From: a virus | Strand: one strand, 5' to 3' | DNA: 64,000 bases | Virus record (IMG/VR): IMGVR_UViG_3300042516_004943 | Coordinates: 1 to 64,000 of that record | In this document: positions 15,262-55,000 of the stretch, piece after piece | Layout: every line of letters begins with the position of its first letter | Numbering within the stretch: the stretch's first letter is position 1 | The notes under the pieces: model-generated | Databases searched by the model: none | Seen by the model: the letters and a program-made list of their open reading frames with translations, nothing else | Told to the model about the DNA's origin: nothing | Position numbers and translations under genes: made by a program

Positions 15262-16563
15262 TTATCGTGATACAGTTTGCGTATAATTAAATCTTAATGC
15301 AAAGTTAATATCTTTGAATTGACCCCTCTTGTTACCAAGGGCATCATAAAAATTATACAACCAACCATGGCTAAATCCACGACCATTACCATCAAGACCA
15401 ATAGAAAATGGATCGGTTGGTATGTACGGATTACTGTTATATCTATTTATAGTTGGTGTAAAAAATAATCCACCAATCCATCTAGAAGTATTTGGGACAG
15501 TTGCAGGAAAGAATATAGCGGCACTTTTGCTAGCTGTATTGCTTCCAGCAGTATAGGCATTGTTTGTAACACTGCCACCAATATCAACATGCGTATACAG
15601 TCTTGTTGCACTTTTTGTAGTGCCAATTGTGTTTGGAAGCGCTGTATTTGGGGGATAATCGTTAATATTTAGAGCATTATTTCCAAACTCATCATCAGCC
15701 CCCAAAAGAGCGGCTGCTGCATATCCGTTATCGCCTTCTGTGCATGGTAATAGAGCCCATGGATTAATCCATGTAAAAGGCTGAAAGCTGCCGATTTGTG
15801 CATATTGTTTTTCTATATTAATTCCGTTTGCGCTCATTTCTCCTAAGAAGTCACGATAACGACCCATAGCTTTCATTTTTCCAAGAGTAGAGAAACTTCC
15901 GCTTGTAATGTTTGGTACTTCAATTGGCGTAACAAGAGCAGGTATAGAAACTTGCAATGTATATGTTAATCTTAGAAATTGGAATGTATCTAAAATAACA
16001 TTCGATGGTAAAACAAATCTACTAAAAAGTATAAAGCCGGTTGGCCTTCCATAGCCGCTTTCTTGAACTGGAAAGCCGCCACCAGAGGTTTCTTTCATGC
16101 CGATTGCTACCTCTCTAACGGTATGCTGTCCTGTTTGTACGGCGTTAAAATCCCAAACCTTTGTATACACACAGCCATCTGCAACATCTTGGCGAAGACA
16201 TGTACCAGTTGTATTTCTGCTTGACCATCCGCCATCTGCGCTTGGTGCAATTGTATTTCCTCTATAATTGGTTGCAGTTGGGTTTGCTGCGTTGCTTGAA
16301 TATACAGCATGAGAAATTACATCGGGTATTCCTCTTGCATGTCGTAAACCGCTAGCACCACCATCAAAAGAAAATGCACTTCTATCATGGCCAACTAAAA
16401 ATCTCAAACCAGTATCTTGTATTAGATTTGGCCTCATTTTGTCGCCAAAAGGCTGACTTACTTCACCATTAGGATGAACTATTTCTACTTTCCACTCTCC
16501 CTTGACAAGCATTTTGTTTTCAACAAATACTTCTTTGTATTTAGGTAAAATAATATTGGCCAT
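15262..16563 (-). CDS. Tail fibre / adhesin-like structural protein, 433 aa (family A)
   Basis: This is one of four paralogues in the operon. They share an N-terminal block (here GEWKVEIVHPNGEVSQPFG then PNLIQDTGLRFL), a middle block (VYTKVWDFN...VREVAIG...LFSRFVLP), an ITSL-like strand block (SIPALVTPIEV) and a C-terminal block (WIGGLFFTP, HGWLYNF, FALRFNYTQ). The architecture suggests a receptor-binding or decoration fibre; no enzymatic motif is seen. It has a TGTAAT element 23 bases before its ATG, so it can be made separately from the upstream genes. Confidence 0.6.
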   Translation of the reverse strand: MANIILPKYKEVFVENKMLVKGEWKVEIVHPNGEVSQPFGDKMRPNLIQDTGLRFLVGHDRSAFSFDGGASGLRHARGIPDVISHAVYSSNAANPTATNYRGNTIAPSADGGWSSRNTTGTCLRQDVADGCVYTKVWDFNAVQTGQHTVREVAIGMKETSGGGFPVQESGYGRPTGFILFSRFVLPSNVILDTFQFLRLTYTLQVSIPALVTPIEVPNITSGSFSTLGKMKAMGRYRDFLGEMSANGINIEKQYAQIGSFQPFTWINPWALLPCTEGDNGYAAAALLGADDEFGNNALNINDYPPNTALPNTIGTTKSATRLYTHVDIGGSVTNNAYTAGSNTASKSAAIFFPATVPNTSRWIGGLFFTPTINRYNSNPYIPTDPFSIGLDGNGRGFSHGWLYNFYDALGNKRGQFKDINFALRFNYTQTVSR

Positions 16564-16586
16564 ATATTGATTATATTAACATTACA
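16563..16586 (-). promoter_or_regulatory. Late promoter element TGTAAT before the 433-aa fibre gene
   Basis: On the minus strand TGTAATGTTAATATAATC begins at 16586, 23 bases before the ATG, and is preceded by TAC as at most other copies of this element. Confidence 0.6.
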
Positions 16587-16613
16587 GTAGTAATTATACT
16601 TTTTTTTAATTTT

Positions 16614-17687
16614 TTATCTATTAAAAATCCATCTGATTTTTACAGTTATTGGAGTATTTGCAGAAATAGTTTGTGCAGTATTGAATTTGTAATATATTGC
16701 TGTATTTGAATTAGTATCAGAATGGTGCCATAAATAAATTCCACCAACTGTTCTGCTTGATGTGTGCGAAGGAAATGAATAGATGGCATCTATACTACTG
16801 AAAGCGTCTGTTTGTTGTAGGTTTGAAAATGAAACTGTAGCTAACGGACCAGACGGAGTATAGGTTATTCTAGAATTAGAATAGTTTACTGGACTATGAG
16901 CACTATCAAAAAAGCCTATATTATTAACCCATGTAGCTGTGCCAAAAATATTTTGAAAAGCGCCATAAGTTGCTGGATCATTTGCAGTAACTATTGTACT
17001 CGTTGAATCAACCGTAAAATCTCTATAAGCATATCCATTTGTGTTGCCAAGCGTGATAATTGTATTATTTCCAGTAATAGTTGGCAAAAGACCGGTATTG
17101 TTTGTAGACATTCTAATATAGCCAGTAAAGTCCAAGCTGGCTCCGGTAAGGGCAATTGATAAATCGCTATTCAAATAATTTATAATTAAATTTAAAGAAT
17201 ATGTTATTTTTAATATATCTCCACTTTCTAAGTTGAGGGCACCTGGAAATACAAACCTACTTAATGTTATTGGGGTAGTATTTGCAATTGCGAAATTTCC
17301 AACACAAGCTTCAGAATAGCTGACCTGTGTGCCTGATGGCACAGCTGCAAATGTAAAATCACGGGTTAATATTATTTTATTATTAACGGAATCAATATTG
17401 GTTGTAAAAAATGTACTTCTGTGGGTTTGACCTAAAATTGTTCCTAGCAGGTTTGTTTGCGTTCTTGTTGGTGATGAGCCGTTTGAGCCAACCCTGCATG
17501 TTTGAATAAATGAGTGCAGTCCTTCGCTATAGCCTGTTAGAATTTTTTGATAAAACGTATCTAAAATTAGATTTTTATTTGGCTTTTTTCCAAACGGAAA
17601 TAATACTTTGCCATTTTTTTTATGTACAGAAACTAAGTATTCTCCAAATATTTTAGAAGTATTTTGTATGTCTATATCTGTTTGCAT
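16614..17687 (-). CDS. Tail fibre / adhesin-like structural protein, 357 aa (family A)
   Basis: This is a paralogue of the 433-aa protein. It has GEYLVSVHKKNGKVLFPFG then NKNLILDTFYQKIL at the N-terminus, then LTRDFTF and LSRFVFPGAL in the middle. VGGIYLWHH and ITVKIRWIFNR close the C-terminus. It is rich in Ser, Thr, Asn and Gly, as usual for beta-structured fibres. It starts 24 bases after the 1,203-aa gene. Confidence 0.6.
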   Translation of the reverse strand: MQTDIDIQNTSKIFGEYLVSVHKKNGKVLFPFGKKPNKNLILDTFYQKILTGYSEGLHSFIQTCRVGSNGSSPTRTQTNLLGTILGQTHRSTFFTTNIDSVNNKIILTRDFTFAAVPSGTQVSYSEACVGNFAIANTTPITLSRFVFPGALNLESGDILKITYSLNLIINYLNSDLSIALTGASLDFTGYIRMSTNNTGLLPTITGNNTIITLGNTNGYAYRDFTVDSTSTIVTANDPATYGAFQNIFGTATWVNNIGFFDSAHSPVNYSNSRITYTPSGPLATVSFSNLQQTDAFSSIDAIYSFPSHTSSRTVGGIYLWHHSDTNSNTAIYYKFNTAQTISANTPITVKIRWIFNR

Positions 17688-17711
17688 AAACTATATTATA
17701 ATAATAAAAAA

Positions 17712-20700
17712 TTAAAACATTTCTAATCCAGAAGCATAATAAGTTCCAGATTCATTTATATTTGGATAAATATAGGCCCCAATTCTGCCAAAACCAGAAG
17801 CTGTATAGTTTCCAGTATCTATTCCAGTGATATGGTCTAAAATATCCGTTTCATAAATCACGCTATCAATATTTCCACTTATTGTTCCGCTTTCAAGCGA
17901 CCCAGTAACGCCAACAAAGTATTCATAATAGGCAATGTTTATAATGTTACCGCTTGTTATTCCAGATGTTCCTTCGCCTAAGACAAGTGGATTTTCAGAA
18001 GATGCGAAAAATATATTATCAATTGATGCATTTAGGCCAGTATACATAATGTCTACGCCCGATAATCCACCAAAAAATCCACTTAATTCTAATGGTATTA
18101 TTCCTGTAATATATAATCCAGTATCTATATTTCCAGAAACTGTTTGTCCTGTCATGAAATCTCCGCTGATACCAGTCAAAGAAAATGGTCGCGTACTAGC
18201 AACATATTCAAATCCTGTAATATTTCCAGAAAGCATACCGGTTATAAATTCTTGACTTTCGAATATGCCAGATACATTTGCAAGCACAACTCCGCTCGTG
18301 TATAGTACTCCAGTGCCAATTCCCGTTCCTGTACCTAAAGAAAAATTACCTATTGGATATACAATATCTGTGATTGGAAATTGCCCAAGGCCTGTAGTTA
18401 TAAGTCCGCTTAAAAATCCTATACCAGTATTTTGATTTGATATTCCAGAAAAACCAGTACCGCTATAGAAATTAAATGTAATTCCAACTGCCCTTCTATA
18501 CACATCAGAAAAACCAAAGCCAGAAACTCCAGCATATTCGCCTGATTGTATTAATAAGCCGCGCAAGCCAAGCGTGCCAGTTAATATTCCAGAACCACTA
18601 TTGACTTCTATGTGACCTATAAATCCAGTCATCATTCCATTTCCAAAAACATTTGAAACTGTTCCAGAAAATCCAGACCCTTCCGTAAAAGAATATCCAG
18701 AATATACTAAATTTGGATATTTAAAATTTGAATTTTGAGAATAGAAACTAGAATGGCTTACCGAATTTTGAGAAAAGAAATACTGTTTATTATCTATAAA
18801 ATACCCACTTGATCCGGACGTACCATCGCCTGTAGAGGCATAATTTATAAACCTTAATGATTGATCTAAAACTCCACTAATAAAGCCTATCATTCTTTCT
18901 CTCGGAAGAGTATTTTCTGAAACAAAGCCGCTATTTGAAAAGTTAAATCCATAAACTGTATTTGTAAATCCTGGATCAAAACCAGATTCTCCATTAAATC
19001 CATTAAAATTTAATGCTATTGGTTTTTTGACAGTTCCTATAATTCCAGTTAAAATTCCACTACCAGTAGTTAACTGCTCTAGCGTAAAAGGATTAAACTG
19101 TATTCCAGAGAATCCAGTAAATTGACTATTAATCGTATAGCCCGAATATAAATTTCCATATCCATAATTTAATTGCTCAAATCCGCCAATTCCAGTAAAT
19201 TGTCCAGAATATTTTAAAATATTTTTATATCCAATATGTCCAGTCATTATTCCTGGTCCAAGAAACGGATCATTAAACCCGATAAAACCGCTTTGCTCTA
19301 TGAAAAATCCCGAAAATTCATAACCAAGATCTGGGTCAACAAAGCCTGGGGTTTTTTCAAAATTAATTGAGGCATTTACGCCAGTATCAAAATATATATC
19401 CTGCTCATAATTTTCATAGTAATATCCGCTATATTCACCAGTTATTACCGCGTCCTGATCTTTGCCTGAAAAAGTTCCGTCTCCGAGCATTGTGCCAAAT
19501 AAAAATCCAGTAATAAGAACTGGCTCTAGTATCGAATCTGGTAAAAATTTATACGACACATTATCTTTTATAAATCCGCTATTTTGAAAAATTCCCGTTG
19601 CCTGTAGAAAAAACCCATCTTCTTCTAAAATGCCGCTTATGTATCCGGTAATATATTCGTATACAAATCCAGTATATGGAAAATCTACTCTTGTATTATC
19701 TATAAAGTATCCGCTTTGTGCTAAAGCACCAGCAGATCTAACAAAATTAAAATTATTATCTATTGATCCGTTAATATACCCAATAACTTGCTCTGCGCCA
19801 GTTGTTCTGTAAGGGGGAAATTGTATTACATTTCTTTCTAGCAATGTTAGCCTTTGACCACTATAAGATCTACTGTATGGCCCAAATATTCCTATCCCAC
19901 TATTTATCCCAGAGTATCCTGTGTATATGCCACTGTAAAATCCGCTAAAACTTGATACAAGGTTTGGGGCAAATGGTTCAAAGGTTCCATTCGGATACAT
20001 TATTCCACTAATTTTACCATACAGGCCTTGATTGTATATATTTTCTATATCCAACAATCTGTAATTAACTACTCCTGTTATATAATCTGCGCCAGTAATT
20101 TGGCTTTGATTGCCGAATTCTAAATATTCCGTTGGCGAAAATGCATTCCACATATTGCCTTCTTGAACTATTGACCAGCTTCCAATATCTCTTAAAAAGA
20201 AACCAACAATATTTGCGCTCATTATATTAGATAATGATTCTGCGGCTTGAGCCGTTTTATTCTCTGAAGCGATATATGCCAAACTATTTATATTTCCACT
20301 TACTGTTGAAAATGAAATATCTGATACGTTTACTGCTATAGGTAATGGCGGCAAAATTATAGCTAAAGATTCTGCCATATTAATAGATATGTCATCAGCT
20401 ATTCTTCTATAATCTCCTCTTAAAACCAGAAATCCGCCGCAGTAATGATCAAGCGCTGCAGTATCATAAGTTTGTCTTCCCAAATTGCTCATTCCGGCCC
20501 CGATCACCATTCTTTTCGGCATCCAGTATTCTGGCTCTTGCACTGTTCCAGAGCGTGTAGTTATTCTGTAAGGCTGTGGGAATGTTCCGGTATATATGCC
20601 AGGATCTTTTCCAAAGAAAGATCTTATTTCGTAAGAATCAAGCTGAGAATAAACCATCAAACAAACAAATTTTTCAGTTCCATTATCTGACTCATAAAAA

Positions 20701-21323
20701 GAAAATGGGTCTCTTTCTACGACTTTTTTTACTTGATCTGCTGAATAGTCTACAGCAAATCCTTTTTTATCTCCTCCAAATATTTCATCATAAATATAAG
20801 TTGTACCTCGAGGTCTAAATTGGCTGGTTGAAAAACATGGCGCAACAACCCCATAGGTATCTACGGATTTATCAAAGCAAAAATAAGGAGGCTCTTCTAC
20901 GCTTGGTCTGTATAAGCTTGTTTCATATTTACCTCTTGCATGTTTAAAAAAATAAAAAACTGTTGTTGGGTCTTTTCTAAATTGAAAATTTGGATCGCTA
21001 GTTCCTGAAAATTCTAGCTCGCCACAATTATCAAGTGCATTTAAAAATATACCAGATTCATGCCAATTAACATTTTTGGGAAATTTTAAAGAAGTTCCCG
21101 AGCATAAATTGCCTATTCCAAACACTTCATTTCCAAAACCAATATTATTATGCTTTCTTAGTGGAAAGTATGCGAATTCCAAATCGTCTTTAATACTGCA
21201 CAAATAATCAGTAAAATCATTTATCTTTGATATTGCATCTGCAGAATAATATCCCCTGCCTTGGCCACTAATTTGCGCCAAGAACCTACTAACTAATGGG
21301 TTAATGATATCATAATGTAGCAT
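17712..21323 (-). CDS. Giant Gly/Ser-rich fibre or adhesin, 1203 aa
   Basis: The N-terminal ~330 residues look globular and unrelated to the rest. From about residue 400 to the end the protein is built of degenerate modules with SGY, SGF and TG at regular steps (for example GYISGILEEDGFF, FSGFSGIQF, SGTGILTG, GIMTGHIGYKN). The same module type occurs in the 597-aa and 1074-aa proteins. No catalytic motif is recognised. An extended beta-rich host-binding fibre is inferred from context and composition. Confidence 0.6.
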   Translation of the reverse strand: MLHYDIINPLVSRFLAQISGQGRGYYSADAISKINDFTDYLCSIKDDLEFAYFPLRKHNNIGFGNEVFGIGNLCSGTSLKFPKNVNWHESGIFLNALDNCGELEFSGTSDPNFQFRKDPTTVFYFFKHARGKYETSLYRPSVEEPPYFCFDKSVDTYGVVAPCFSTSQFRPRGTTYIYDEIFGGDKKGFAVDYSADQVKKVVERDPFSFYESDNGTEKFVCLMVYSQLDSYEIRSFFGKDPGIYTGTFPQPYRITTRSGTVQEPEYWMPKRMVIGAGMSNLGRQTYDTAALDHYCGGFLVLRGDYRRIADDISINMAESLAIILPPLPIAVNVSDISFSTVSGNINSLAYIASENKTAQAAESLSNIMSANIVGFFLRDIGSWSIVQEGNMWNAFSPTEYLEFGNQSQITGADYITGVVNYRLLDIENIYNQGLYGKISGIMYPNGTFEPFAPNLVSSFSGFYSGIYTGYSGINSGIGIFGPYSRSYSGQRLTLLERNVIQFPPYRTTGAEQVIGYINGSIDNNFNFVRSAGALAQSGYFIDNTRVDFPYTGFVYEYITGYISGILEEDGFFLQATGIFQNSGFIKDNVSYKFLPDSILEPVLITGFLFGTMLGDGTFSGKDQDAVITGEYSGYYYENYEQDIYFDTGVNASINFEKTPGFVDPDLGYEFSGFFIEQSGFIGFNDPFLGPGIMTGHIGYKNILKYSGQFTGIGGFEQLNYGYGNLYSGYTINSQFTGFSGIQFNPFTLEQLTTGSGILTGIIGTVKKPIALNFNGFNGESGFDPGFTNTVYGFNFSNSGFVSENTLPRERMIGFISGVLDQSLRFINYASTGDGTSGSSGYFIDNKQYFFSQNSVSHSSFYSQNSNFKYPNLVYSGYSFTEGSGFSGTVSNVFGNGMMTGFIGHIEVNSGSGILTGTLGLRGLLIQSGEYAGVSGFGFSDVYRRAVGITFNFYSGTGFSGISNQNTGIGFLSGLITTGLGQFPITDIVYPIGNFSLGTGTGIGTGVLYTSGVVLANVSGIFESQEFITGMLSGNITGFEYVASTRPFSLTGISGDFMTGQTVSGNIDTGLYITGIIPLELSGFFGGLSGVDIMYTGLNASIDNIFFASSENPLVLGEGTSGITSGNIINIAYYEYFVGVTGSLESGTISGNIDSVIYETDILDHITGIDTGNYTASGFGRIGAYIYPNINESGTYYASGLEMF

Positions 21324-21333
21324 ATACTAGCAT

Positions 21334-23127
21334 TTATTTATAAAACCCACCAAGCGCTATATTCACATCTGATATTCCAGATAAGGTTTTTAAAATATCA
21401 ATTCCTATTCTATCACCAGCAGTTACTTCAAAAGAAATTTTTGAATTTGCATCTGTTTCTGCATACATCATTCCAGAGCTTATACCAAAATCTATTAAAT
21501 ATTCTTTAACCCCATTTTTATTCTTCTTATAAAATTTTCCAGTTAATGGAGAAAAATCTGGAAGATTTCTATAGCCTATCAGCCCAGTCATTATTCCAAG
21601 TCCGGAATTTGAAAATTGAACTCCACTAAATCCACTTTTTGCTGGAAAAAATCCACTATATTCATATCCGTACTGTTTAATAAATCCGTTTTCAGATTCG
21701 AAGGCCTCAAATTGGTAAGTTCCGTTGCCACCCGTTACAAATCTTCTTTGCTCATATGGATATAAAAAGTATCCACTAAATCCATCAGTATTGGGTGGAT
21801 ATCCCGCACCAGTATGAATTGGTCTGAAATTTGGCAATACCTCAACTTCTAAAAATCCACTGATTATTTCCCCCCTTAGTTCTTCTCTTACCCCTATTGG
21901 CCCATATAAATATCCAGTAAATCCTCCAGACACATCTTGGTATAATCCAGTAAATTGGTTTTGATTTGTATTGCTAAATATTCCAGAATATATATAATTT
22001 ACGTTCTGAAATCCTGGCATGCCACTAAAGCCAGAAAATAAACCGCTTCCAGTAGGAAAATAGTATTGCTGCCCACTTAAAAAATATCCACTTGAATCGA
22101 TTATGAATCCGTTTCTTCCTGTTGGAAACCCACTTATTCTAAATCGAAATGATGATAGTGGATAAAAAATATTTGTTGAGCTTCTATATCCACTTAAAAA
22201 GCCAGTAATTACATTATCAAGCTTATATACATTTCTACTACCTATTGCTTGCGTATATACTGCTGGGCCAAAATTATCAGTATTAGCGGATCCTGTTAGC
22301 GCATTTATATTAAACCCAGTAAATGAATACCCTAAATTTTGATCAAAACCAGGCTCTCCATTAAAACCACTAAAGTTAGTATTTGAAAAATATTTAGCAT
22401 TGTTATTTATAATATATCCACTACCGCCATTAAATAAAAATGACCGTTGTCTTTCTAAAAATCCGCTAATATATCCGGTAATATAATTTGTAAATGTAGT
22501 TGGTCCAGCCCCAGAATTACCACAATATAATCCCCATCCAGTAAATTCAGCTGGATATTGAATATATTGTTCATATAAATTTTCTTTTATTTGCACATTA
22601 TTACCATAATAATTAAAAGCTACTGGTATTTTATCGAATGATGCGGCGGCAGAATAATAACCTAACAAGCTTATTGACAATGATCGCATTTCATTTGCTG
22701 ATGAATGAATATTTAGGCCTAATATATTATGTGGTGTTATTTTGTAATCTAAAGGTCCATTATTAGAGTATTGATATTTTCCTAAAGTAAATGCTCCAAC
22801 ATATTTAGTATCAATAACACTTTCTGGCTTTCTTGTATAAAAAGATCCTTCTAACTTATCATCTCCTGTTGCTGGGTGTGAGCATGTGACCAAAAATCCA
22901 GTGGCCATAAAAAAATCACTCATATATATTTCATTTAAATAATTTCCAACAACTGGCCATCTGCTATAAAATGATATTGGAGCATATCCTCTTAAAAAAA
23001 ATCTATCCGTTAATTGTATCCCAGATGTATTTTTAACTTGCATGCCATCAATAAATAAACGATTGTCATGGGCAGTTAAAATGGACCCATTTAAATTGAT
23101 AGATTCTATGGATAGTACGCTTGGCAT
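21334..23127 (-). CDS. Fibre protein with SGF/SGY modules, 597 aa
   Basis: The N-terminal ~190 residues (ATGFLVTCSHPATGDD...LGLNIHSSANEMRSLSISLLG) resemble two tandem segments in the plus-strand protein at 39046-40944 (ATGWSVS..., ATRWGIYAGTPG...LGLDIYYGLNDLKNLHIILGG). Residues about 210-520 are SGF/SGY modules. A short C-terminal domain (ISFEVTAGDRIGIDIL) follows. Probably a composite tail or capsid fibre. Confidence 0.6.
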   Translation of the reverse strand: MPSVLSIESINLNGSILTAHDNRLFIDGMQVKNTSGIQLTDRFFLRGYAPISFYSRWPVVGNYLNEIYMSDFFMATGFLVTCSHPATGDDKLEGSFYTRKPESVIDTKYVGAFTLGKYQYSNNGPLDYKITPHNILGLNIHSSANEMRSLSISLLGYYSAAASFDKIPVAFNYYGNNVQIKENLYEQYIQYPAEFTGWGLYCGNSGAGPTTFTNYITGYISGFLERQRSFLFNGGSGYIINNNAKYFSNTNFSGFNGEPGFDQNLGYSFTGFNINALTGSANTDNFGPAVYTQAIGSRNVYKLDNVITGFLSGYRSSTNIFYPLSSFRFRISGFPTGRNGFIIDSSGYFLSGQQYYFPTGSGLFSGFSGMPGFQNVNYIYSGIFSNTNQNQFTGLYQDVSGGFTGYLYGPIGVREELRGEIISGFLEVEVLPNFRPIHTGAGYPPNTDGFSGYFLYPYEQRRFVTGGNGTYQFEAFESENGFIKQYGYEYSGFFPAKSGFSGVQFSNSGLGIMTGLIGYRNLPDFSPLTGKFYKKNKNGVKEYLIDFGISSGMMYAETDANSKISFEVTAGDRIGIDILKTLSGISDVNIALGGFYK

Positions 23128-23135
23128 ATTTTTTA

Positions 23136-23969
23136 TTACATTACCGATCTGAACATTGCTTTCTGAAAATTATCTACTGCTATATTATAATTATAAATAT
23201 CATTTTCAGAAAATGCATAACCAACAGAAGCGAGCGCTATGTTCGCATCCAACGTTGATGTTACTTTGCTTAAGTAATTATTGCCAAAAAGTAACAATTT
23301 TAAATTATTTTTTAAATCTATATCTGTAGGTAATAACGGAAACCAATTTCCAAAAACTTGCCCATTCAAGTAGCACTTGGTAGTGTTGATGCCAATCATA
23401 AGTCCCGTTCCGCTAATATTAGAATTGATCATTTGATCGGCGGTATATCCAAATCCGCCTAAAGTATTAATTATATTATAAACATATCCAACAATGCCAT
23501 CATTTTTACTAAAATTTAACTCGAAGGCCCCAACGCCAGAAAGTTCTTGAATAAAATTTCTAGTATTTACTCCAATAAATCTTCCATCTTTTGTTATGTT
23601 TGAAAATGGCGTTCTATTGTATACTGATATATGAACGTTTTTAAATGATGCAAATAATGTTAATGGTATATCAGTATTTCCATAACCCGTTACTCCGGTT
23701 ACGCCATTTTTATTGTGGGTTTGCTGTCCAAACCAAGAGATTTTATACTTATTAGGATCTATAAGATTAAAGCTGTGCGAAGATGCGGTTCCTCCAATAA
23801 AAGGATAAAGGGCTATAAATTTATCTATTAAATTTAATTGCCACAATGCATCAGCAAATTCGGCAAGTGCGCCAACTTCATGATTTCTAAACACTTTAAA
23901 GCCACCGCAAGCATTAATGAATGGCATTACGGTTGTGTTAAAAGAATCGTTTACTCGCCTTTTATACAT
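23136..23969 (-). CDS. Structural protein, 277 aa (family B)
   Basis: It shares a core with the 401-aa protein at 28343-29548: a helix-rich start, then FIALYPFIGG, a SFNL...NPNKY strand and KNGVTGVTGYGNT, then a VHISVYNRT strand. The pattern resembles concanavalin-like jelly-roll attachments in phage fibres (inference). Its ATG overlaps the end of the 1074-aa gene (ATGTATAA). Confidence 0.55.
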   Translation of the reverse strand: MYKRRVNDSFNTTVMPFINACGGFKVFRNHEVGALAEFADALWQLNLIDKFIALYPFIGGTASSHSFNLIDPNKYKISWFGQQTHNKNGVTGVTGYGNTDIPLTLFASFKNVHISVYNRTPFSNITKDGRFIGVNTRNFIQELSGVGAFELNFSKNDGIVGYVYNIINTLGGFGYTADQMINSNISGTGLMIGINTTKCYLNGQVFGNWFPLLPTDIDLKNNLKLLLFGNNYLSKVTSTLDANIALASVGYAFSENDIYNYNIAVDNFQKAMFRSVM

Positions 23970-26900
23970 ATGTTTCTCTATTCATGGCCAGAGTAATATT
24001 TAGAGATATTAATTGATCTTCAAATTTTGTCTGATAGTTATCAAATCTGTAATACCAACCAACATATGGAATATTTATACCCTCAAGATAGTACGCAAAA
24101 TAATCTTCAAAAACAAAAGGTTTTGTTGGGTGCCAAAGGCGATTTGCGTTCCATTTTTCCATAGGGGCAAAAAAGAAGCCACCGATGCCCGTATCATTAT
24201 TTGGAAATTCTGCTTTGAATTGAAACCAATAATTAATTTCTTTTGGATATGAATTAGATGGGTAGTCTGTTGTTAGGCCTCCATATTCATACGTTGGCCA
24301 AGATGGAAATGGAGTATTTGCAAGATTAATACGGTATCTTTTTCCATAATAATCAGTATTATTAGGATATTTGCCTTGAATACCGATCTCTGTAACTTCA
24401 TCTCCGCCAGGTATTACAAACATAAATCTAGTATCGTTTTCAGGCGGAAATGGTGGCGGGTAGTTTGGATAGAATCCCAATCCACTTTCAGGCTCGTTTC
24501 CGATCATAACTGCTGATAGATAGATATTTGGGTTTATTTGATTTCCAAAAAACCATTTATTGTGCGCTGGCCACCAAAACCCGTACATTGGGCCTGCTTG
24601 CGAGCCAACAGCTGAAGCTATTCCGTTAGGAGTAATGGTTCCGAATATTCTACTATAATTTCCAATAAGTTTGATTGAGCCGCTTCCGTTAAAATCGCCA
24701 TAAACTACATTTTCTCCGGTTACAGGTATTGGAGTTATCATTGCCGGAATTCTTATAGCTGTATCATATCTTACTTTTACAAATTCTCCAGTTGTTAGTT
24801 CTATACCCGACAATTGCTTTCTAAAACCAAAGATGCCCGTCATAATTCCACTATTAGACCTAATAAAATAATCATTTCTTGAACCTATGAATCCGGTAAG
24901 TGATCCTGTAATGCTATTTGTTGGATATGTATAGAAAACTCTATGACCTATAAATCCAGAAAGAATACCTGTGCCAAAAGCTCCGGTTAGTCCAGAAAAT
25001 GTAGAGCCTTCTGGGAAATTGAAACCAGTATAAGCGAACCCGGTATCGATACTAAAACCGGGCATTCCATTAAAGCCAGAAAATGTATTTCCGGTTGGAA
25101 AATAATATTGTTGGTTATTTAAGAAATATCCGCTAGATCTTAGTTGTGGAAGTTCTGGATATAAATCTTGAAAGGTAAAAAATTGACCAAGATCGTTTCT
25201 AAATCCGCTTATAAAGCCATTAATTTTTTCATAGTTTATTTTTGGCCAACTCTCCCCAGAAAATCCACTCTGTGATGGGAAAAAGCCCGAGAAAGAAAAG
25301 CCTAATCCAGTATAAAAGCCTGGCATTCCGCTAAAACCAGAAAATGTATTTCCGGTTGGAAAATAATATTTTTTACCACTTAATATATATCCACTAAACC
25401 CTTGACTTCCAGGTATAGGAACAGTAAATGGAATGAATGTGCCAAATGCATTTGTTACACCGCTTCTGAAGCCAACAATGCGCTCTCTTTCAAGTACAGT
25501 ATTGTATATAAAACCGCTACCATATTGTAGATTGAACATTCTACCGCTCGGATTATATCTCCAGCCATATTCGAAAGATGGTATGTTATCGAATCCCTGC
25601 TCTTCAGTACCAAAAGATCTAAGAACGTTTCTGTTTCCAATAATACCGCTGGCGTAACCAGGGCCAGTATTTCCGTTAATTGTTTTTACTGTATAGCTAG
25701 GAAAATTTAAACCGCTAAATTGAAAACCTAAATAGCTATCAAATTCTGGCAGCCCTGAAAATCCGCTTAATGGTATATTTTCATATAAATTTCTATATCC
25801 TAATATTCCAGTCAAAATTCCAGTTCCAGAACTTGTATTATCAACACCGCTAAATCCGCTCCCAGTTATATATGGAAAACCGCTATATGCAAATCCAAGA
25901 TAAGCATCAAATTCATTTGGGTTTTCTCCAGCAAATCCAATAAATTCACCGCTTTTATAAAAAAAGTTTCTGCTGCCAATAAATCCAGTATAAATTCCAG
26001 TTCCAGAATTAGTAAATTCTATACCACTAAATCCGCTTGAAAATTGGAAAAAACCTGAGTATATAAATCCAGTTTCATTACTAAATCCTAATTGGCCAGA
26101 AAATCCAGAAAAAGATTGTCCGGTAGGAAATGCTCTTTGGGATCCTTCAAAAAAATATCCGCTAGATAACTTATCAATTTCACTAAATCCGCTAAAAATG
26201 GTACCGGATTGAAAACCACTTATATAACCTATAATTCTTTCCGTCCTTATTTCTTGTATTGGTGGAAATTGATATCTTTGATTATTTAAATAGTATCCAC
26301 TAGAACTATAAAGCAAATTCGATTCAAATCCAGAAAAATTACCAGTAGTATCACGAAATCCGCTAATATAGCCAGTTATTGGTTGAGAAATTACTTTGCG
26401 ATTTGCGAATGGAATTTGTTGTCCGTTAATAACGTATCCACTTAAATATGCATGTTTAAATTGAGGATCATTTTGATTATAAAATGTAAAATTATTAAAT
26501 TGGTCTAAATTTCCACTCCTGTAACCATATACAATTTGATATTCTTTTGTTTTAACAGGGGGTATATTATATAACTGACCAGAAACTATTATTCCGCTAC
26601 CTATATCTATTGGGTGATTGTGCAAGTTAAAATTGCCACTATTATCAATATATCCGCTTAAAAATCCGGTAGCAAGCTCTTCAGATGTAAATAAAAATCT
26701 AGACCATATACCTCGCCTACCGGCATTGTTAGATAAATCTGATGCATTTGGTTTGAAACCAGCTTCTGTATAGGTGACTCTTTCCGATTCAATAGGAAAA
26801 TCATATGTTCTAGAAAAAATAGCCATTCCTGATCCAGATATGTAAGTTCCTGTGGCTCTATTAAAATTTGGCCTAATATAGTTTGTTTGTTTATAAAATC

Positions 26901-27186
26901 TATGCAAAGCTGTATCTTTATCTGAAATTGGCTTTGTTCCTGTACCAAGCTGCATAGTTCCATCAGTAAGTCTTGAAAAAACAAGCCCCCCTCCAATACT
27001 TGAAGTTTTAGCATTGCCAGGGCTCATTAATTCTACCATTGATTCGAGCCATAAGTCTAATATTCTATTAGACTTCATTTCTTTTCCAAATGGAAACGAA
27101 GATTCAATGCCGGATTCTCCAGATCTACATATTTCGACATTCCATTTCGCCGATAAGTATGTGTTTATTTGTGCGTTTGCTTCCAT
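23962..27186 (-). CDS. Fibre protein, family A with inserted SGF/SGY array, 1074 aa
   Basis: Residues 1-172 match the N-terminal and middle blocks of family A (KWNVEICRSGESG...FPFG, RTYDFP, YTEAGF, WSRFLF). Residues about 800-1074 match the C-terminal blocks (RIPAMITPIPV, IGGFFFAP, VGWYYRFDNYQ, ISLNITLAMNR). Between them lie about 625 residues of SGF/SGY modules, placed in the loop that in the other three paralogues is only a few residues long. FPTGNTFSGFSGMPGF-type units recur. This is a domain insertion in a fibre, probably enlarging the distal binding part. Confidence 0.65.
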   Translation of the reverse strand: MEANAQINTYLSAKWNVEICRSGESGIESSFPFGKEMKSNRILDLWLESMVELMSPGNAKTSSIGGGLVFSRLTDGTMQLGTGTKPISDKDTALHRFYKQTNYIRPNFNRATGTYISGSGMAIFSRTYDFPIESERVTYTEAGFKPNASDLSNNAGRRGIWSRFLFTSEELATGFLSGYIDNSGNFNLHNHPIDIGSGIIVSGQLYNIPPVKTKEYQIVYGYRSGNLDQFNNFTFYNQNDPQFKHAYLSGYVINGQQIPFANRKVISQPITGYISGFRDTTGNFSGFESNLLYSSSGYYLNNQRYQFPPIQEIRTERIIGYISGFQSGTIFSGFSEIDKLSSGYFFEGSQRAFPTGQSFSGFSGQLGFSNETGFIYSGFFQFSSGFSGIEFTNSGTGIYTGFIGSRNFFYKSGEFIGFAGENPNEFDAYLGFAYSGFPYITGSGFSGVDNTSSGTGILTGILGYRNLYENIPLSGFSGLPEFDSYLGFQFSGLNFPSYTVKTINGNTGPGYASGIIGNRNVLRSFGTEEQGFDNIPSFEYGWRYNPSGRMFNLQYGSGFIYNTVLERERIVGFRSGVTNAFGTFIPFTVPIPGSQGFSGYILSGKKYYFPTGNTFSGFSGMPGFYTGLGFSFSGFFPSQSGFSGESWPKINYEKINGFISGFRNDLGQFFTFQDLYPELPQLRSSGYFLNNQQYYFPTGNTFSGFNGMPGFSIDTGFAYTGFNFPEGSTFSGLTGAFGTGILSGFIGHRVFYTYPTNSITGSLTGFIGSRNDYFIRSNSGIMTGIFGFRKQLSGIELTTGEFVKVRYDTAIRIPAMITPIPVTGENVVYGDFNGSGSIKLIGNYSRIFGTITPNGIASAVGSQAGPMYGFWWPAHNKWFFGNQINPNIYLSAVMIGNEPESGLGFYPNYPPPFPPENDTRFMFVIPGGDEVTEIGIQGKYPNNTDYYGKRYRINLANTPFPSWPTYEYGGLTTDYPSNSYPKEINYWFQFKAEFPNNDTGIGGFFFAPMEKWNANRLWHPTKPFVFEDYFAYYLEGINIPYVGWYYRFDNYQTKFEDQLISLNITLAMNRETYV

Positions 27187-27187
27187 T

Positions 27188-28300
27188 TTAAATTCTAGCC
27201 ATAGATTGCCTTAAATTAATTACAATTTTTTTATCAGATCTTTTTATTTGCGGGTTATTTAATTTCCACAACCATCCATCAACTGTATTTTGTCTATTTG
27301 TTTTTACAGTTGTAAATAAAAAACCTCCTATAGTTTCATTTGCTGTTGGATTATTTATATCAAATACATATTCAATATCTCTGTAAAAACTTCCTTGAGT
27401 ATAATTAGATGGGTTTATTGTTCCGTTGGCTACAGAAAGTCTGCTACCAAGCCAGTTAGTAAATAGGGTATTATTAATATTATTTTCATTCTCAAAAAAA
27501 TTTGTTAAAAGATAAGCTGTGCCAAAGCATTTATTTGTGCATGTTTCTATTTCTGCACAAAACTCTTCACAAAATGGCATAAAAGAAGATCTTGGCGAAT
27601 CGCCATTTCTGATAACTGGATTTCCATCTAAATCAAAGCTTCCGAATATATCATCAAATCTTCCAACTAATTTTAACCATCCATTAGCATTGAATGTTCC
27701 AGAAGATAAATTTATATTTATTGGATTGACAATAGCACTACACGAAATAGAAAAATTATAAAACAATCTTAACCACTGCCCTCTTGGTATAAGAATCGGG
27801 CTGTCTAAAAGAAATTTTGTAAATAATTCTCCGTTCCATCCGTTTTTAAGCCCTATTTCAGAAGCTGTATAAGACTTTGGAAACATTGGTAAGTTTTCTG
27901 GCTTTGGAAAATCATATACTTTTTTAAAAACTCTTTTTCCTAAACTATAAAAATCTTCAATTGAGCATGATTTATCGTTTATAACGTTTGTTTCTAATGT
28001 TTGATATGTTAAATTAGTATCGCTGGCTTGCGCTGGAGCTATTCCGGAGCCTAGCACAGCGTTTCCTTTCAAAAAAGATGGTATAGTATTCCAATTTAAA
28101 TTTAAATGGGGGCCATAGCCATTATTTGCAGATAGAATATCAAGGGCCTGATCTAGTATAAGGTTTTTTTTATATGAACTTCCAAATGGAAAAGTTTCTT
28201 TATTATTCTCATCAACTATAGCTACGTTCCAGGATCCACCAATTTCAAATGATGGGTTTATAGATACGCCTAAATGATTTTTTATATGCAAATTTAACAT
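27188..28300 (-). CDS. Tail fibre / adhesin-like structural protein, 370 aa (family A)
   Basis: This paralogue has GGSWNVAIVDENNKETFPFG and KKNLILDQALDIL, then FKKVYDFPKP, YTASEIGLK and FTKFLLDSPILI. It ends with IGGFLFTTV, DGWLWKLNNP and IVINLRQSMAR. It alone has a Cys-rich loop (FCEEFCAEIETCTNKCFG, about residues 246-263) that could form disulfides or bind metal. The next gene starts one base after its stop. Confidence 0.62.
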   Translation of the reverse strand: MLNLHIKNHLGVSINPSFEIGGSWNVAIVDENNKETFPFGSSYKKNLILDQALDILSANNGYGPHLNLNWNTIPSFLKGNAVLGSGIAPAQASDTNLTYQTLETNVINDKSCSIEDFYSLGKRVFKKVYDFPKPENLPMFPKSYTASEIGLKNGWNGELFTKFLLDSPILIPRGQWLRLFYNFSISCSAIVNPININLSSGTFNANGWLKLVGRFDDIFGSFDLDGNPVIRNGDSPRSSFMPFCEEFCAEIETCTNKCFGTAYLLTNFFENENNINNTLFTNWLGSRLSVANGTINPSNYTQGSFYRDIEYVFDINNPTANETIGGFLFTTVKTNRQNTVDGWLWKLNNPQIKRSDKKIVINLRQSMARI

Positions 28301-28342
28301 TTTTATTAATTATGATAATATATATTTTTATATTTTATAATT

Positions 28343-29548
28343 TTATATTTCCGTAAATTGCATAATATTAATGCTTGCAGCAGTTGAATCAGACAGGTAT
28401 AGTCTTCGTGGGCCAAAAACTTCTATTTTATTTATAGATAATGTTGGCGTAATACATTGATTTTCTTTTTTAAATCTATCATAAATTTCATCTTTTAATG
28501 GGTATAGGTGGCGACTTGTGAGTGTTGTAACTTTGTCAATTCTAATGCTTGGAGCAACCCTTGGATTCGTTTCATCAACGAGCATTTCGCTTTCGCCAAG
28601 CCTGAATGTACCAACGTTTCTTCTCAAGATGGTCTGGAATTCTTCAACTATATCATAAAATATTTTATTTTCATAATCATCAAGGGCTGTACCTATGGTG
28701 GCAAATCGTATATTTGCCTTGGCGGTTTGTTCCGTTTGTCCTTTAATAGTTTGGGCTACAGATCCAAAAGCTCTATGCGTTAACAATAAAAATGGATATT
28801 GGCTAAATGTTGGGATTGCTTCATTAAAAGAATTTAATTGCGTTGGGTTTATTCTGCTTGATACAGCATTTGATAATAGAGAATATGCGCCTAATTTTTC
28901 TCCGCCTGTATAGCAATAAATACCATTAACGCCAACTATTAGTCCCCAGGCCTGTGCATTTAATTGATCTCCTGCGTCAACACCAGCGCCTCTAAATGGT
29001 GGGAACGTTCCGCAGCTATAAGTAAAAATTGGTGCTTGAAGAATTCCTTTTGATGGATCATTATCTATAAAAGTTTGCGGTCTTCTGCGCAAACTAATTG
29101 TATGCATCCATGATGAAGAGTTAGGGTCGGGTGTCGATCCTATAAGGGCACATTCTGCAGATGTATCATACCATCTAGTAGCGTTATAAACAGAAACGTG
29201 TATATCATTATCGCTAAACCATGATGGCGCAACAAATGTATTTCCATATCCAGTTCCTGTATTTGTTACCCCATTTTTATCGAAAATTAATGAGTTGTAC
29301 CAAACAATAGTATGCCTATAAGGATTTTTTAAATTAATGCTCATTGATGGTCCAGATCTGCCAACCAGTGGATAAATAGCTCTAAATTTTGACCAAAGAT
29401 TTGTTGATATAAGAGCTGTGGTTAAAAAGTCCAAAGCTTTAATTTCATCCGAATTTGGCTGAACCGGAGACGTTTCAAACATTCTTTGTATGAATAGCAA
29501 GGATGCTGGATGAAGTGTATCTCTTAACTGCTTGCTGATTATTTGCAT
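28343..29548 (-). CDS. Structural protein, 401 aa (family B)
   Basis: This is the first gene of the fibre operon and a paralogue of the 277-aa protein. The shared core is FRAIYPLVGR, SINLKNPYRH, KNGVTNTGTGYGNT and IHVSVYNATR. It carries a C-terminal ~80-residue extension (IRIDKVTTLTSRHLYP ... FGPRRLYLSD). A late-type promoter element lies 23 bases upstream, divergent from the PhoH gene. Confidence 0.55.
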   Translation of the reverse strand: MQIISKQLRDTLHPASLLFIQRMFETSPVQPNSDEIKALDFLTTALISTNLWSKFRAIYPLVGRSGPSMSINLKNPYRHTIVWYNSLIFDKNGVTNTGTGYGNTFVAPSWFSDNDIHVSVYNATRWYDTSAECALIGSTPDPNSSSWMHTISLRRRPQTFIDNDPSKGILQAPIFTYSCGTFPPFRGAGVDAGDQLNAQAWGLIVGVNGIYCYTGGEKLGAYSLLSNAVSSRINPTQLNSFNEAIPTFSQYPFLLLTHRAFGSVAQTIKGQTEQTAKANIRFATIGTALDDYENKIFYDIVEEFQTILRRNVGTFRLGESEMLVDETNPRVAPSIRIDKVTTLTSRHLYPLKDEIYDRFKKENQCITPTLSINKIEVFGPRRLYLSDSTAASINIMQFTEI

Positions 29549-29571
29549 ATTATAAGCTTTATATTATTACA
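29549..29571 (-). promoter_or_regulatory. Late promoter element TGTAAT of the fibre operon
   Basis: On the minus strand TGTAATAATATAAAG begins at 29571, 23 bases before the ATG at 29548. Together with the plus-strand element at 29649 it forms a divergent late promoter region. Confidence 0.65.
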
Positions 29572-29648: not shown

Positions 29649-29661
29649 TGTAATGTATAAT
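29649..29661 (+). promoter_or_regulatory. Late promoter element TGTAAT of the PhoH-terminase operon
   Basis: TGTAATGTATAA lies directly before the ATG at 29662. The ATG at 29653 overlaps the element, which is why the later start is preferred. Confidence 0.6.
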
Positions 29662-30513: not shown

Positions 30514-30581
30514 AAATAAATTAAAATTAGATTTTTACTCTTTTATTGAGTAGAATATTACATAATAAATTTATTTTAATT

Positions 30582-31052
30582 ATGTTAAGTTATTTTTGCT
30601 CAAAATGTGGCGGTAAAAATCTTTACCAATTTCAAAAACCTAAATTTTGCTCTCATTGCGGTGCTAGTTTTTCTTTGGCATCAGCTCCAGCATCTACAAA
30701 TATTAAATCAAATCAATTTGAGGTTAATATAAACACAAACAAGATAATCAATACAAATATAGAAGATAAGCCTGAAATTTTTGAACCGTCCGCTCAAGAC
30801 TATAGTTCGATGAGTGGTCTAGATGTTCATATTGAAAAATTTGGTCAAGATAGTGGTATAAAACTTGGAGAGCTTGTTGCAGATGATCCCGTCAAAGCAA
30901 AAATAACTGCTAATAAAAAAAATAATAAACAGCGCAAAGGCAGAAAAAAAATAGCCAAATCTCTGCCAGAAAGTTTCGTTTCTGAAGCAAAAATGTCAGG
31001 GCGAAATTACCAAAACTATGAAGAGCTTAACATTATAGATAACGAAGAATAA
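30582..31052 (+). CDS. Zinc-ribbon protein
   Basis: The ATG at 30582 gives a protein that opens with a zinc ribbon: CSKCGG and CSHCGAS, separated by about 15 residues. A long low-complexity Asn/Lys-rich linker and a basic segment (KKNNKQRKGRKK) follow. The position between PhoH and the sigma factor and the nucleic-acid-type composition suggest a transcription accessory role (inference). The TTG-started longer version has no support. Confidence 0.7.
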   Translation: MLSYFCSKCGGKNLYQFQKPKFCSHCGASFSLASAPASTNIKSNQFEVNINTNKIINTNIEDKPEIFEPSAQDYSSMSGLDVHIEKFGQDSGIKLGELVADDPVKAKITANKKNNKQRKGRKKIAKSLPESFVSEAKMSGRNYQNYEELNIIDNEE

Positions 31053-31054
31053 AT

Positions 31055-31738: not shown

Positions 31739-31739
31739 T

Positions 31740-32852: not shown

Positions 32853-32853
32853 T

Positions 32854-35718: not shown

Positions 35719-35736
35719 TGTAATAAATAACTGCAT
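35719..35736 (+). promoter_or_regulatory. Late promoter element TGTAAT of the portal operon
   Basis: TGTAATAAATAACTG starts 18 bases before the portal ATG at 35737 and is preceded by ATTAC. Confidence 0.6.
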
Positions 35737-40944: not shown

Positions 40945-40959
40945 TGTAAAGGATACTAT
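40945..40959 (+). promoter_or_regulatory. Possible variant late promoter element
   Basis: TGTAAAGGATACTAT lies 15 bases before the ATG at 40960. It deviates from TGTAAT at the last base and is weaker evidence than the other copies. Confidence 0.35.
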
Positions 40960-42256: not shown

Positions 42257-42272
42257 TGTAATAAATATATAA
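42257..42272 (+). promoter_or_regulatory. Late promoter element TGTAAT of the protease-scaffold gene
   Basis: TGTAATAAATATATAA starts 19 bases before the ATG at 42276 and is preceded by AAAAG. Confidence 0.65.
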
Positions 42273-43889: not shown

Positions 43890-43905
43890 TGTAATATATA
43901 CTAAG
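43890..43905 (+). promoter_or_regulatory. Late promoter element TGTAAT of the capsid genes
   Basis: TGTAATATATACTAAG starts 30 bases before the ATG at 43920, preceded by TTTTAAC. It serves the two most codon-optimised genes in the window. Confidence 0.68.
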
Positions 43906-46121: not shown

Positions 46122-46134
46122 TGTAATTAATAGC
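46122..46134 (+). promoter_or_regulatory. Late promoter element TGTAAT before the 182-aa gene
   Basis: TGTAATTAATAGC ends exactly at the ATG at 46135. This argues against the in-frame TTG start at 46117, which would put the element inside the gene. Confidence 0.55.
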
Positions 46135-48627: not shown

Positions 48628-48642
48628 TGTAATTAGTATAAG
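48628..48642 (+). promoter_or_regulatory. Late promoter element TGTAAT of the tail tube gene
   Basis: TGTAATTAGTATAAG lies 49 bases before the ATG at 48677, the longest spacing in the set, preceded by TTTAAAG. Confidence 0.58.
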
Positions 48643-49765: not shown

Positions 49766-49785
49766 TAGTTAAAGAAAATTAAATC

Positions 49786-49819
49786 AAAAGAGGCCATATT
49801 TTATGGCCTCTTTTTTTTT
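49786..49819 (+). terminator. Rho-independent terminator after the tail tube gene
   Basis: A stem AGAGGCCATA/TATGGCCTCT closes a short T-rich loop and is followed by nine T. Confidence 0.92.
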
Positions 49820-49824
49820 CTGCG

Positions 49825-49840
49825 TGTAATACTTTGTAGG
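49825..49840 (+). promoter_or_regulatory. Late promoter element TGTAAT of the tail assembly genes
   Basis: TGTAATACTTTGTAGG starts 36 bases before the ATG at 49861, right after the terminator. The second half differs most from the consensus. Confidence 0.5.
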
Positions 49841-49860
49841 TAAAAGGTTAGTAAAGGTTA

Positions 49861-50109
49861 ATGAATTTTAATATTCAAAATTTTATTAAAGGATTTATAA
49901 AAAGGTCTGTAACAAGATTATTTTTATCTTTTATATATAACCTAGAAGACCTATTGTCTGAGGGTAAAATTTCCCAAGATGATTTTCAAAAATTAAGAAA
50001 AAGAATTTTAGATAAAGGAAATAATTGTATAAGAGATATTTATTTAGAATTAGATAATTTTGATTTTTTATTTAAAAATGATATTATAAATAATAAAGAC
50101 CATGACTGA
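49861..50109 (+). CDS. Hypothetical protein, 82 aa
   Basis: This small helical protein (LSFIYNLEDLLSEGKISQDDFQKLRKRIL) starts after an AAAGG ribosome-binding site. Its stop overlaps the next gene. Position between tube and tape measure suggests tail assembly. Confidence 0.65.
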   Translation: MNFNIQNFIKGFIKRSVTRLFLSFIYNLEDLLSEGKISQDDFQKLRKRILDKGNNCIRDIYLELDNFDFLFKNDIINNKDHD

Positions 50110-50914: not shown

Positions 50915-50924
50915 AAAATGATAC

Positions 50925-51941: not shown

Positions 51942-51975
51942 TTTTTTATAAAAATAGATTTTTGAAATTTAATAC

Positions 51976-51994
51976 TGTAATTATACTGTAAGGA
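51976..51994 (+). promoter_or_regulatory. Late promoter element TGTAAT of the tape measure gene
   Basis: TGTAATTATACTGTAAGG starts 31 bases before the ATG at 52007 and is followed by an AAGGATAA ribosome-binding site. Confidence 0.62.
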
Positions 51995-52006
51995 AAAAGG
52001 ATAATT

Positions 52007-55000
52007 ATGGCTATTGCTTCGTTACCACTTGATGTAGTAGGAAATACGGCACAATTGCGCCGTCAAATTGAGCAAATTCAAAAAACCCCTATTATTCTTG
52101 ACGTTAAAGCGAATACAAGGGGCGCTGCGCCATTGGGCAGAATAAGCGGAGAAATATCTGAAATAGATAAATCTCTAGCTGCAGCCAATGCTCGCGTTAT
52201 AGCCTTCGGTGCCTCTGTGGGAGCCATTTATGCTTTAGAAAGAGCAGTGCAGGGCTTATTTCAATCATTTGTAAATACAGAGAAGAAATTAGCTGATATT
52301 AATGCGGTATTGAATTTGGATGGTGGCGGCATAGCGGCTTTTGGAGATAGACTATTTGATGTAGCAGCAAATACTGCCCAATCATTCGATACGGTTGCAA
52401 CTGCAGCTACAGAGCTTGCAAGGCAGGGCTTGGGCGTAGATGAGACGCTTAGAAGAACAAACGATGCGCTTATACTTACAAGATTAAGTGGGTTGGATGC
52501 AGCTGCAAGCGTTGAGGCTTTGACGGCCGCTATAAATTCTTTTAGCACGCAGGCTTTAAATTCTGGCGAGATTGTAAATAAATTAGCAAATGTTGACGCA
52601 GCTTTTGCTGTAAGCTCCGCTGATTTAGCCGAGGCTTTAAGTCGCGTTGGCTCTAGCGCCTCAGATGCTGGTGTTTCTTTTGATGAATTAATTGCTTTAG
52701 TTACTACAGCGCAACAGGTTACTTCAAGAGGCGGTTCGGTAATTGGTAACTCATTAAAAACAATTTTTACAAGACTTAATAGACAAGACACGCTTGACTT
52801 ACTTGGTGGGTTAGGCATAGAAACAACTGATGCGGAAGGCAAGTTAAAAAATCAAGTTCAATTATTAAGAGAACTTGCTGTTGTTTATGATGATCTAAAT
52901 CAAGTTCAAAAAGGAGAAGTTGCAGAAAAGGTTGGCGGCGTTTTTCAAATAAATATTTTAAGAGCAGCTTTGTCAGATTTGGGAAAAGAGTATTCTATTT
53001 ATGATAGAGCATTGCAAACTTCTATATCTAGCACAGACGAAGCTATACAAAGAAATGCCCAGCTTAATCAAACCATTGCAGCTTTAGGAGCGCAAACACT
53101 TGCTAACGTACAAAAATCTGCATCTAAAATAGGCGAAGGATTGTTTGGGCCAGCAGCAAATAACATATTAAATGCTGTAAATTATATTGCCCAAGCAGCA
53201 AACCAGATTGATTCTGATGGTATTGGTGCTAAAGTTGGAAAGGGAATTATTGATGGTATTGGTAAATTTCTTGGCGGACCTGGCCTTGCAATTCTTGGAG
53301 CAGTACTAACAAAGCTTGGACTGTCTTTTGCTAAATATTTAGGAGAAGCAAGTAAAAGCATATTAGGTACAAATCAGGCCGCAAAAAATCAAGCAGTAAT
53401 TCAGCAAGCTGTTGGTAGTTTTTTAGCAAAAAATTCTAGTTTATATCAATCTATATTGAAAGGACAAACAACAGCTACGCAAGCTGCCCAATTATTTTTA
53501 AAACAAATCCAAGCGCAAACCGTAGAGTTACAAAGACAAGTTGGCGTTGCTAATGCAGTTGCTGCCGCCGTTGCTAAAGCAGCTAACGCATCGAGAACAG
53601 CAGCTGCTGCGACTGCGGCTGTTCCTGTTAGAAGTGGTGGTGGCAAAGTTAGAGCAATGGGTCATGTTCCAAACTTTAGCGCTTCTGCTGCAGATGCTTA
53701 TTTAGCAAAGAAAAAGGGGGGATATGAGCCCGGCTCTCCGCAGCAAACAAAAATTGGTGGCCAAGTTATAAACTGGAATGGTGCCGAAAGTTTAGTTCAA
53801 TATCCAGGCGCAAAAACTCCAGCGATTGTTCCGCCAGAAAATAGCAGAGCCGGAAAATCTTATAGAAAAGATTTTATAAAAGCATCTGGCGGAATGGATC
53901 CTTATGATTCTGCTAAGGCAATGGGTTTTGTGCCAAATTTTGCATTTACAATTGGCGGCAAACAGTACAGAACAAATGCTGCTGTAGCGCAAAATATAAG
54001 ATCAGGCAATATAACAGAATCGCAAGCTGCTGCTGCTGGGTATAAACCAAGCCGAAATTCTCCAGCTGGAAGAGCCGCTGCTAATAAGCAAAGCCAAAAA
54101 AAACCAGACATTACTGTTGGTGGGCCAAGATATGCATACCTTTATGCATCTGGTGGAGATAAAGGCTTAGTTGCGAGTACTGCATATTTACCAGATAACA
54201 GAAAAGTAAATTTTAGTTTTTCAAAAGCTGGTATTAAAAAACCATTCAATTTTAAGGATGAGGTAAATCAGCACATAACGCCTGGATTTAATCAAATTGC
54301 TAAAAAAATATATCCAAGCGCCTTGGGTGGTCCAGGGTATATGATGCAATATTTTGATAAATCGGGAACTAATCAAACACTTGGTAGGCTTTTTGAAGCA
54401 GCTGTTCTTCGCGCTGTTAGGCCAAAAGCAGACGTATCTGGGGCATCTGGCGGTTCAAATTTTGATATACCAAGTCTTGCTGCTAGCGACAGAAGGGCTT
54501 TTGCTGAAATATTTTCTGGCGCACCAACGTACAGAAATGCAGATTTTAAATATAGTGCACCAGGCGGAACAGCTGCCGATGGAAATGTAAAAAGTTTTGT
54601 TGCAAAATTATTAACTGCGAAAGGAGTATCGGCAACTAAAAAAGATATTTTTACTACACCTAGAAGTACCCAATCATCTGGCAAAAAAGCTGCTTTGGGT
54701 TTTATTCCTAATTTTGCAGCAGTATCAGAAGCAGTAAACAGAGAAATTCAAGCTGGAGCAAAGCCAAATCAAATTGGTATTGATACAAATAATAAGTTAA
54801 AATCTTCAAGCAATAAAATGGGGGTTGGTGTTTGGAGCACTGCTTTTGAATCTTCTTTAGCTGAAGGTATTTCCATGGCTAAGAAGTCAGGTATAAATCC
54901 AAAAACAAAGGGGCAACCTGCTGCCAGTGGATACATACCGAATTTTGCTGAAGGCGATAGCGGAGATATTGGGGCTGGATTAACTGCTACTGCAATCAAT

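Follow-up and report, generated by a model that had tools for sequence, protein, structure and literature searches.

The analysis of a 64-kb stretch of viral DNA (hereafter the window; positions 1 to 64,000 of the 73,821-base IMG/VR virus record IMGVR_UViG_3300042516_004943) revealed a short box, GTGTAAT, that probably works as a late promoter reduced to a -10 element and read by the host RNA polymerase with a phage-encoded sigma factor, in a large family of uncultured tailed phages. The window encodes a PhoH-like protein, the sigma factor, an ERCC4-type nuclease, the terminase large subunit, the portal and a 2,585-residue tape-measure protein, and its comparison with cultured phages by megablast gave no near-identical DNA match. 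In the part of the literature that we searched (open-access papers), no description of GTGTAAT/TGTAAT late promoters accompanied by such a sigma was found. An original prediction made from the window alone had proposed a phage-specific, single-box promoter of the late type; enrichment, position before structural genes, separation from TTGACA promoters, conservation and the accompanying phage sigma now argue for this proposal.

Since the hexamer TGTAAT is found 54 times in the whole window against 55.5 in shuffled sequences, its total equals chance and the claim depends on where the copies sit. TGTAAT precedes all ten starts listed originally, the hexamer beginning 13-49 nucleotides (nt) upstream of the start codon. 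The positional signal is stronger than had been stated: the 22 same-strand upstream gaps (1,048 bp) contain 10 copies, whereas 2,000 dinucleotide shuffles of these gaps averaged 1.14 and never exceeded 6. An equal frequency inside genes, named as one outcome that would speak against the element, was not observed, with 9.5 copies per kb in upstream gaps versus 0.25 in coding sense and 0.51 in coding antisense DNA. The original list was correct in its ten entries and had overlooked an eleventh site, at 23135-23140. The sites, with distances counted from the box to the start codon, are:

16581-16586 (-): TGTAAT, 17 nt before start 16563; not conserved in relatives
23135-23140 (-): TGTAAT, added site, 7 nt before start 23127; overlaps the stop codon of the upstream gene
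29566-29571 (-): TGTAAT, 17 nt before start 29548; half of a divergent promoter pair, the pair being conserved in relatives
29649-29654 (+): TGTAAT, 7 nt before start 29662; the PhoH-like gene heads an operon with the sigma factor and the terminase
35719-35724 (+): TGTAAT, 12 nt before the portal gene (start 35737); identical in three relatives
42257-42262 (+): GTGTAAT, 13 nt before start 42276; kept in relatives
43890-43895 (+): TGTAAT, 24 nt before start 43920
46122-46127 (+): GTGTAAT, 7 nt before start 46135
48628-48633 (+): GTGTAAT, 43 nt before start 48677
49825-49830 (+): GTGTAAT, 30 nt before start 49861; directly 3' of a terminator-like hairpin (49786-49814), with a Shine-Dalgarno (SD)-like block downstream
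51976-51981 (+): TGTAAT, 25 nt before the tape-measure gene (start 52007), with the SD-like block aaggaaaaagg downstream
40945-40950 (+): TGTAAA, before 40960; judged not to be a promoter copy

Orthologous genes in three relatives retain 10 of the 11 sites, the exception being the one before 16563. The boxes before 42276, 48677 and 52007 persist in relatives although the surrounding flanks have diverged, and the added site at 23135-23140 is kept at the orthologous gene in the relatives G002, G004 and G005. The proposed location after terminators is clear at 49786-49814. Some details of the prediction did not stand. The sequence before 40960, originally taken for a weaker TGTAAAGG copy, consists of the TAA of the upstream gene and a Shine-Dalgarno sequence, and two relatives have TAATGTAAGGAT there. 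The supposed nnnTA tail finds little support; conservation in the flanks concerns a G (or C) before TGTAAT and a purine some 8 nt downstream. Of the 10 copies, 6 follow AC or AG, as had been remarked for most of them, and 8 follow C or G.

The motif discovery suggested with the prediction was carried out on related phages. A search with the sigma gene retrieved 43 contigs, and an alignment-based search raised the number in IMG/VR to at least 557, of which 80 were kept. Motif statistics were computed on 103 related contigs totalling 1.95 Mb, which yielded a non-redundant set of 1,087 upstream regions. Four of the records are contigs from bacterial bins and may be mis-binned phage. Among the 7-mers of the upstream regions, GTGTAAT has the most significant enrichment (159 versus 34.7 expected; 53 on the opposite strand), and 6-20 nt before start codons it was counted 126 times versus 2.7 expected. 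Substitution counts yield the consensus GT[G>A]TAA[T>A,C], in which T2, T4 and A5 are nearly fixed and position 1 is G, less often A or C. As gene starts came from a simple caller, a caller-free test of open reading frames (ORFs) was used as mitigation. An ATG opening at least 45 codons lies within 40 nt of 65% of 368 GTGTAAT occurrences, compared with 7-13% for the controls (reverse complement, backward copy and two permuted 7-mers); the overlapping or one-base variants GTGTATA and TGTGTAA are intermediate, and GTATAAT reaches 17%. The box is found at only 4 of 1,039 operon-internal genes, at 72 of 276 genes behind gaps of 9-24 nt and at 147 of 1,038 behind gaps of at least 25 nt. In agreement with the prediction that no -35 box is present, 179 sites aligned on the box show no informative column from -60 up to the box. 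Since all relatives were gathered by the sigma gene, the absence of the box from sigma-less phages refers to three control phages, T4, phiEco32 and 7-11, none of which is enriched in GTGTAAT; the same pipeline recovers from these controls the T4 TATAAATA element (10 versus 0.2) and the phiEco32 AATGTAT element (4 versus 0.3).

The spacing between the end of the box and the start codon is strongly asymmetric. A distance of 0-6 nt was counted for 7 sites, exactly 7 nt for 30 and 7-13 nt for 113, and the distribution extends beyond 40 nt. Such a shape, cut off sharply on the short side and drawn out on the long side, would be expected of a promoter box, because the start codon cannot precede the transcription start, and the abrupt onset at 7 nt agrees with transcripts whose 5' end is at the ATG or beside it. 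Sites with the start codon 15-60 nt away still favour a purine about 8 nt downstream of the box, and this preference is therefore not merely the ATG itself. In addition, SD-like blocks accompany 8 of 137 sites at a spacing of 7-19 nt versus 14 of 40 at a longer spacing (at least 20 nt; Fisher p = 1e-5). A comparable layout appears in the early genes, where the end of TTGACA peaks 28-30 nt before the ATG; together with a 17-nt spacer and a -10 element, this places the ATG at about +1. Many genes of the family may thus be expressed from leaderless or near-leaderless mRNAs. Early (TTGACA) and late (GTGTAAT) sites lie mostly in different blocks, and in the window the former occupy one arm:

1-15200 (-): left (early) arm, 47% GC, homologous to G004, with TTGAC(A)-type promoters rather than GTGTAAT

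Starts with such promoters are 1978, 3024, 3287, 6578, 7621 and 8982. The element had been described as not seen at left-arm promoters, which needs qualification: two left-arm copies of TGTAAT precede called ORFs, at 3024 and 6861. The first is the -10 of a host-type promoter (TTGACC-N16), and the ORF behind the second overlaps a tRNA gene. Repeated left-arm blocks of one family (D3; 7787-7837, 11971-12021, 14327-14377, 14543-14593 and 14763-14813) read as minus-strand early promoters, in which TTGAC and a -10 are followed after about 6 nt by an ATG, a layout that makes early genes likewise look leaderless.

The best candidate for reading the box is encoded in the operon that starts at 29649:

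31055-31738 (+): phage sigma factor of 227 residues, with region 2, a four-cysteine insert, a linker and a region 4-like helix-turn-helix

Region 2 spans residues ~2-83, a linker of low confidence residues 118-149 and the region 4-like domain residues ~152-227. Between the two sigma domains, C85, C88, C97 and C107 are invariant and possibly form a metal site. The Pfam family Sigma70_r2 was matched in 25 of 25 aligned members, and Sigma70_r4_2 weakly in 9 of 25. Structures were compared by domain, given that the domains are freely placed in the model and whole-chain superposition yields a high root-mean-square deviation (rmsd). Region 2 superimposes on sigma-E bound to -10 DNA (4lup; Z 7.9, rmsd 2.4, 78 aligned residues) and region 4 on sigma-E region 4 bound to -35 DNA (2h27; Z 9.4, rmsd 2.5, 69 aligned residues). 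The gene is present in every record used, and tblastn (E 0.01) found no relative of this sigma in cultured phages, the collection searched comprising 50,697 phage records. The genes on either side (30546-31052 and 31740-32852) have no family match and keep their position in many relatives; genes of this neighbourhood (within 30546-33774) are possible sigma partners or anti-sigma factors.

We infer the following transcription programme from these sequence features. The host primary sigma would read early genes from TTGACA-N17-TATAAT promoters. The phage sigma, which resembles extracytoplasmic function (ECF) sigmas, would be made from an operon with a TGTAAT site (29649) at its own head and, together with the host core RNA polymerase, would recognise and melt the GTGTAAT box before structural genes without the help of a -35. 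Transcription would begin 7-8 nt downstream of the box. Where the start codon is 7-8 nt after the box, the transcript would be leaderless or nearly so; at 20 nt or more, an SD is seen more often. Several observations weigh against this scheme. The motif is weak in G011, the most distant group, and about 487 of 708 gaps of at least 40 nt have neither element as searched. The structural model of the sigma is of middling confidence (pLDDT 73, pTM 0.37), and its region 4-like domain predicts a -35, yet none is seen. Finally, the link between sigma and motif consists of shared presence, in relatives chosen by their sigma, and a weak correlation: one sigma residue covaries with the use of TGTAC versus TGTAA (p = 4e-5, uncorrected for ancestry), which was not used as proof.

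Could the box simply be the -10 of a host primary or alternative sigma that dispenses with a -35, the phage sigma doing something else? It does resemble TATAAT with a G at the second position, and copies of GTATAAT are found at starts too (30 versus 1.8 expected at 6-20 nt). However, GTATAAT lacks the sharp 7-nt onset and precedes ORFs far less often than GTGTAAT in the caller-free test, early TTGACA/TATAAT genes lie mostly in other blocks, and all these phages carry the same dedicated sigma gene, which makes this explanation unlikely. The involvement of a phage-encoded RNA polymerase, either T7-like or divergent multisubunit, appears still less plausible. Phage polymerases typically read short late promoters that consist of a single box, such as AACA-N6-TA/G in AR9 (PMC5312081), but RNA_pol_Rpb2_6, a family of the multisubunit polymerase beta subunit, was unmatched in nine records when its control was matched in 14 of 14 genomes, and every record used has the sigma gene; a search for a T7-type RNA polymerase gave no match, although its control was silent as well. 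A translation-initiation signal acting in the mRNA as a non-SD ribosome site would account for a box placed mostly 7-15 nt before the start codon of genes that rarely have an SD. It was rejected as very improbable since operon-internal genes nearly always lack the box; the hard lower edge of the spacing, its tail beyond 40 nt and the return of the SD at 20 nt or more argue in the same direction. Chance or the composition of AT-rich intergenic DNA, for which only the whole-window count speaks, has a negligible likelihood and was rejected on the basis of gap shuffles, opposite-strand and permuted controls and conservation at orthologous genes.

Among known systems, a promoter read by a phage sigma from a GTGTAAT box would operate most like those of phiEco32 gp36, whose middle and late promoters have the box tAATGTAtA and a start site 6-8 bp downstream (PMC8948821). 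Both share a single conserved box containing TGTA, the lack of a -35, a similar start distance (7-8 nt predicted here), a sigma gene of similar size and, presumably in our case, the redirection of the host RNA polymerase. Nevertheless, no homology is detectable between the two sigmas (hhalign probability 0.1%). gp36 is devoid of region 4, which is predicted here, and no four-cysteine insert has been described for it. The boxes differ in sequence and register, and those of phiEco32 are at least 34 nt before starts with an SD in 77% of cases, unlike GTGTAAT, with its spacing from 7 nt and few SDs. The comparison with the T4 late promoter TATAAATA (gp55, gp33 and gp45) made in the original prediction is apt for the single-box logic, as a -10-like box stands before structural genes and a sigma-family protein is phage-encoded, but phiEco32 gp36 is the nearer functional parallel. 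The T4 box has another sequence and is at least 14 nt before starts, and the sigma described here has its own region 4-like domain, unlike the T4 system. SD use in T4 and phiEco32 amounts to 68-77%. The bacterial-type clamp PF00712 had no match in nine records; the T4-type clamp and gp33 were not searched for.

Phage 7-11 gp47 is, like the present protein, a phage ECF-type sigma with region 4. Its late promoters are bipartite, GTAAtg-(16)-aCTA (PMC8948821), and the similarity of its region 4 to ours is weak (hhalign E 0.0028). With bacterial ECF sigmas, such as E. coli sigma-E, the protein shares the two-domain fold of region 2 and region 4 that defines this group (group 4), to which it adds the four-cysteine insert. 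Cellular ECF sigmas read both -35 and -10, whereas the 179 aligned sites display no -35. As for the spacing, mycobacteria have leaderless promoters with a -10 just upstream of the ATG (PMC4633059), an arrangement by which transcription likewise begins at the start codon. The difference is that both a phage sigma-type box and early host-type promoters have this layout here. Assignment of the host from genome bins was rejected, as the four contigs from metagenome-assembled genomes carry conflicting labels (Halobacteriovorax, Flavobacteriales, Flavobacteriaceae and uncultured) and are perhaps viral DNA placed in the wrong bins.

For a phage group represented by at least 557 sigma-carrying contigs, these results provide a testable transcription code in which TTGACA/TATAAT stands for early and GTGTAAT for late genes. 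A sigma with region 4 but apparently no -35 offers a clean test of starting transcription from a -10 alone. The spacing further predicts leaderless early and late mRNAs, unlike in T4 or phiEco32, which may help in identifying the host. The broader view of a widespread lineage that combines a new ECF-like sigma class (cysteine-rich insert, region 4, GTGTAAT only) with mostly leaderless early and late mRNAs, which would point to a host where leaderless translation is the norm, is more tentative, and we hold it slightly short of evenly balanced.

The early arm has further peculiarities. The left 15 kb have a GC content of 47%, the remainder of the window about 34%; an assembly chimera was considered and rejected, the arm being homologous to 0-15 kb of the 170-kb relative G004, which shares the GC step. 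The arm also holds about ten copies of an intergenic element of ~100 nt (1976-2059, 3308-3391, 4263-4346, 5297-5401, 6604-6708, 8310-8414, 9243-9347, 10815-10919, 12248-12352 and 13613-13717), made of two dyad-symmetric units like CGTAAGTCGTTGAT-ATCAACGACTTACG with a GC-rich core. Its palindrome, with a lineage-specific core, recurs in the distant relatives G004, G009, G011 and G013; an operator, a two-way terminator or a segregation site are candidate functions. Five tRNA genes (Met, Cys, Asp, Lys and Trp) lie in the same arm at 3407-8079 (-). Elsewhere in the record, large fast-diverging proteins are encoded at 15262-29548 and 59770-71232, probably by tail fibre or adhesin genes; they show ~20-55% identity to those of relatives whose sigma and terminase are more than 90% identical.

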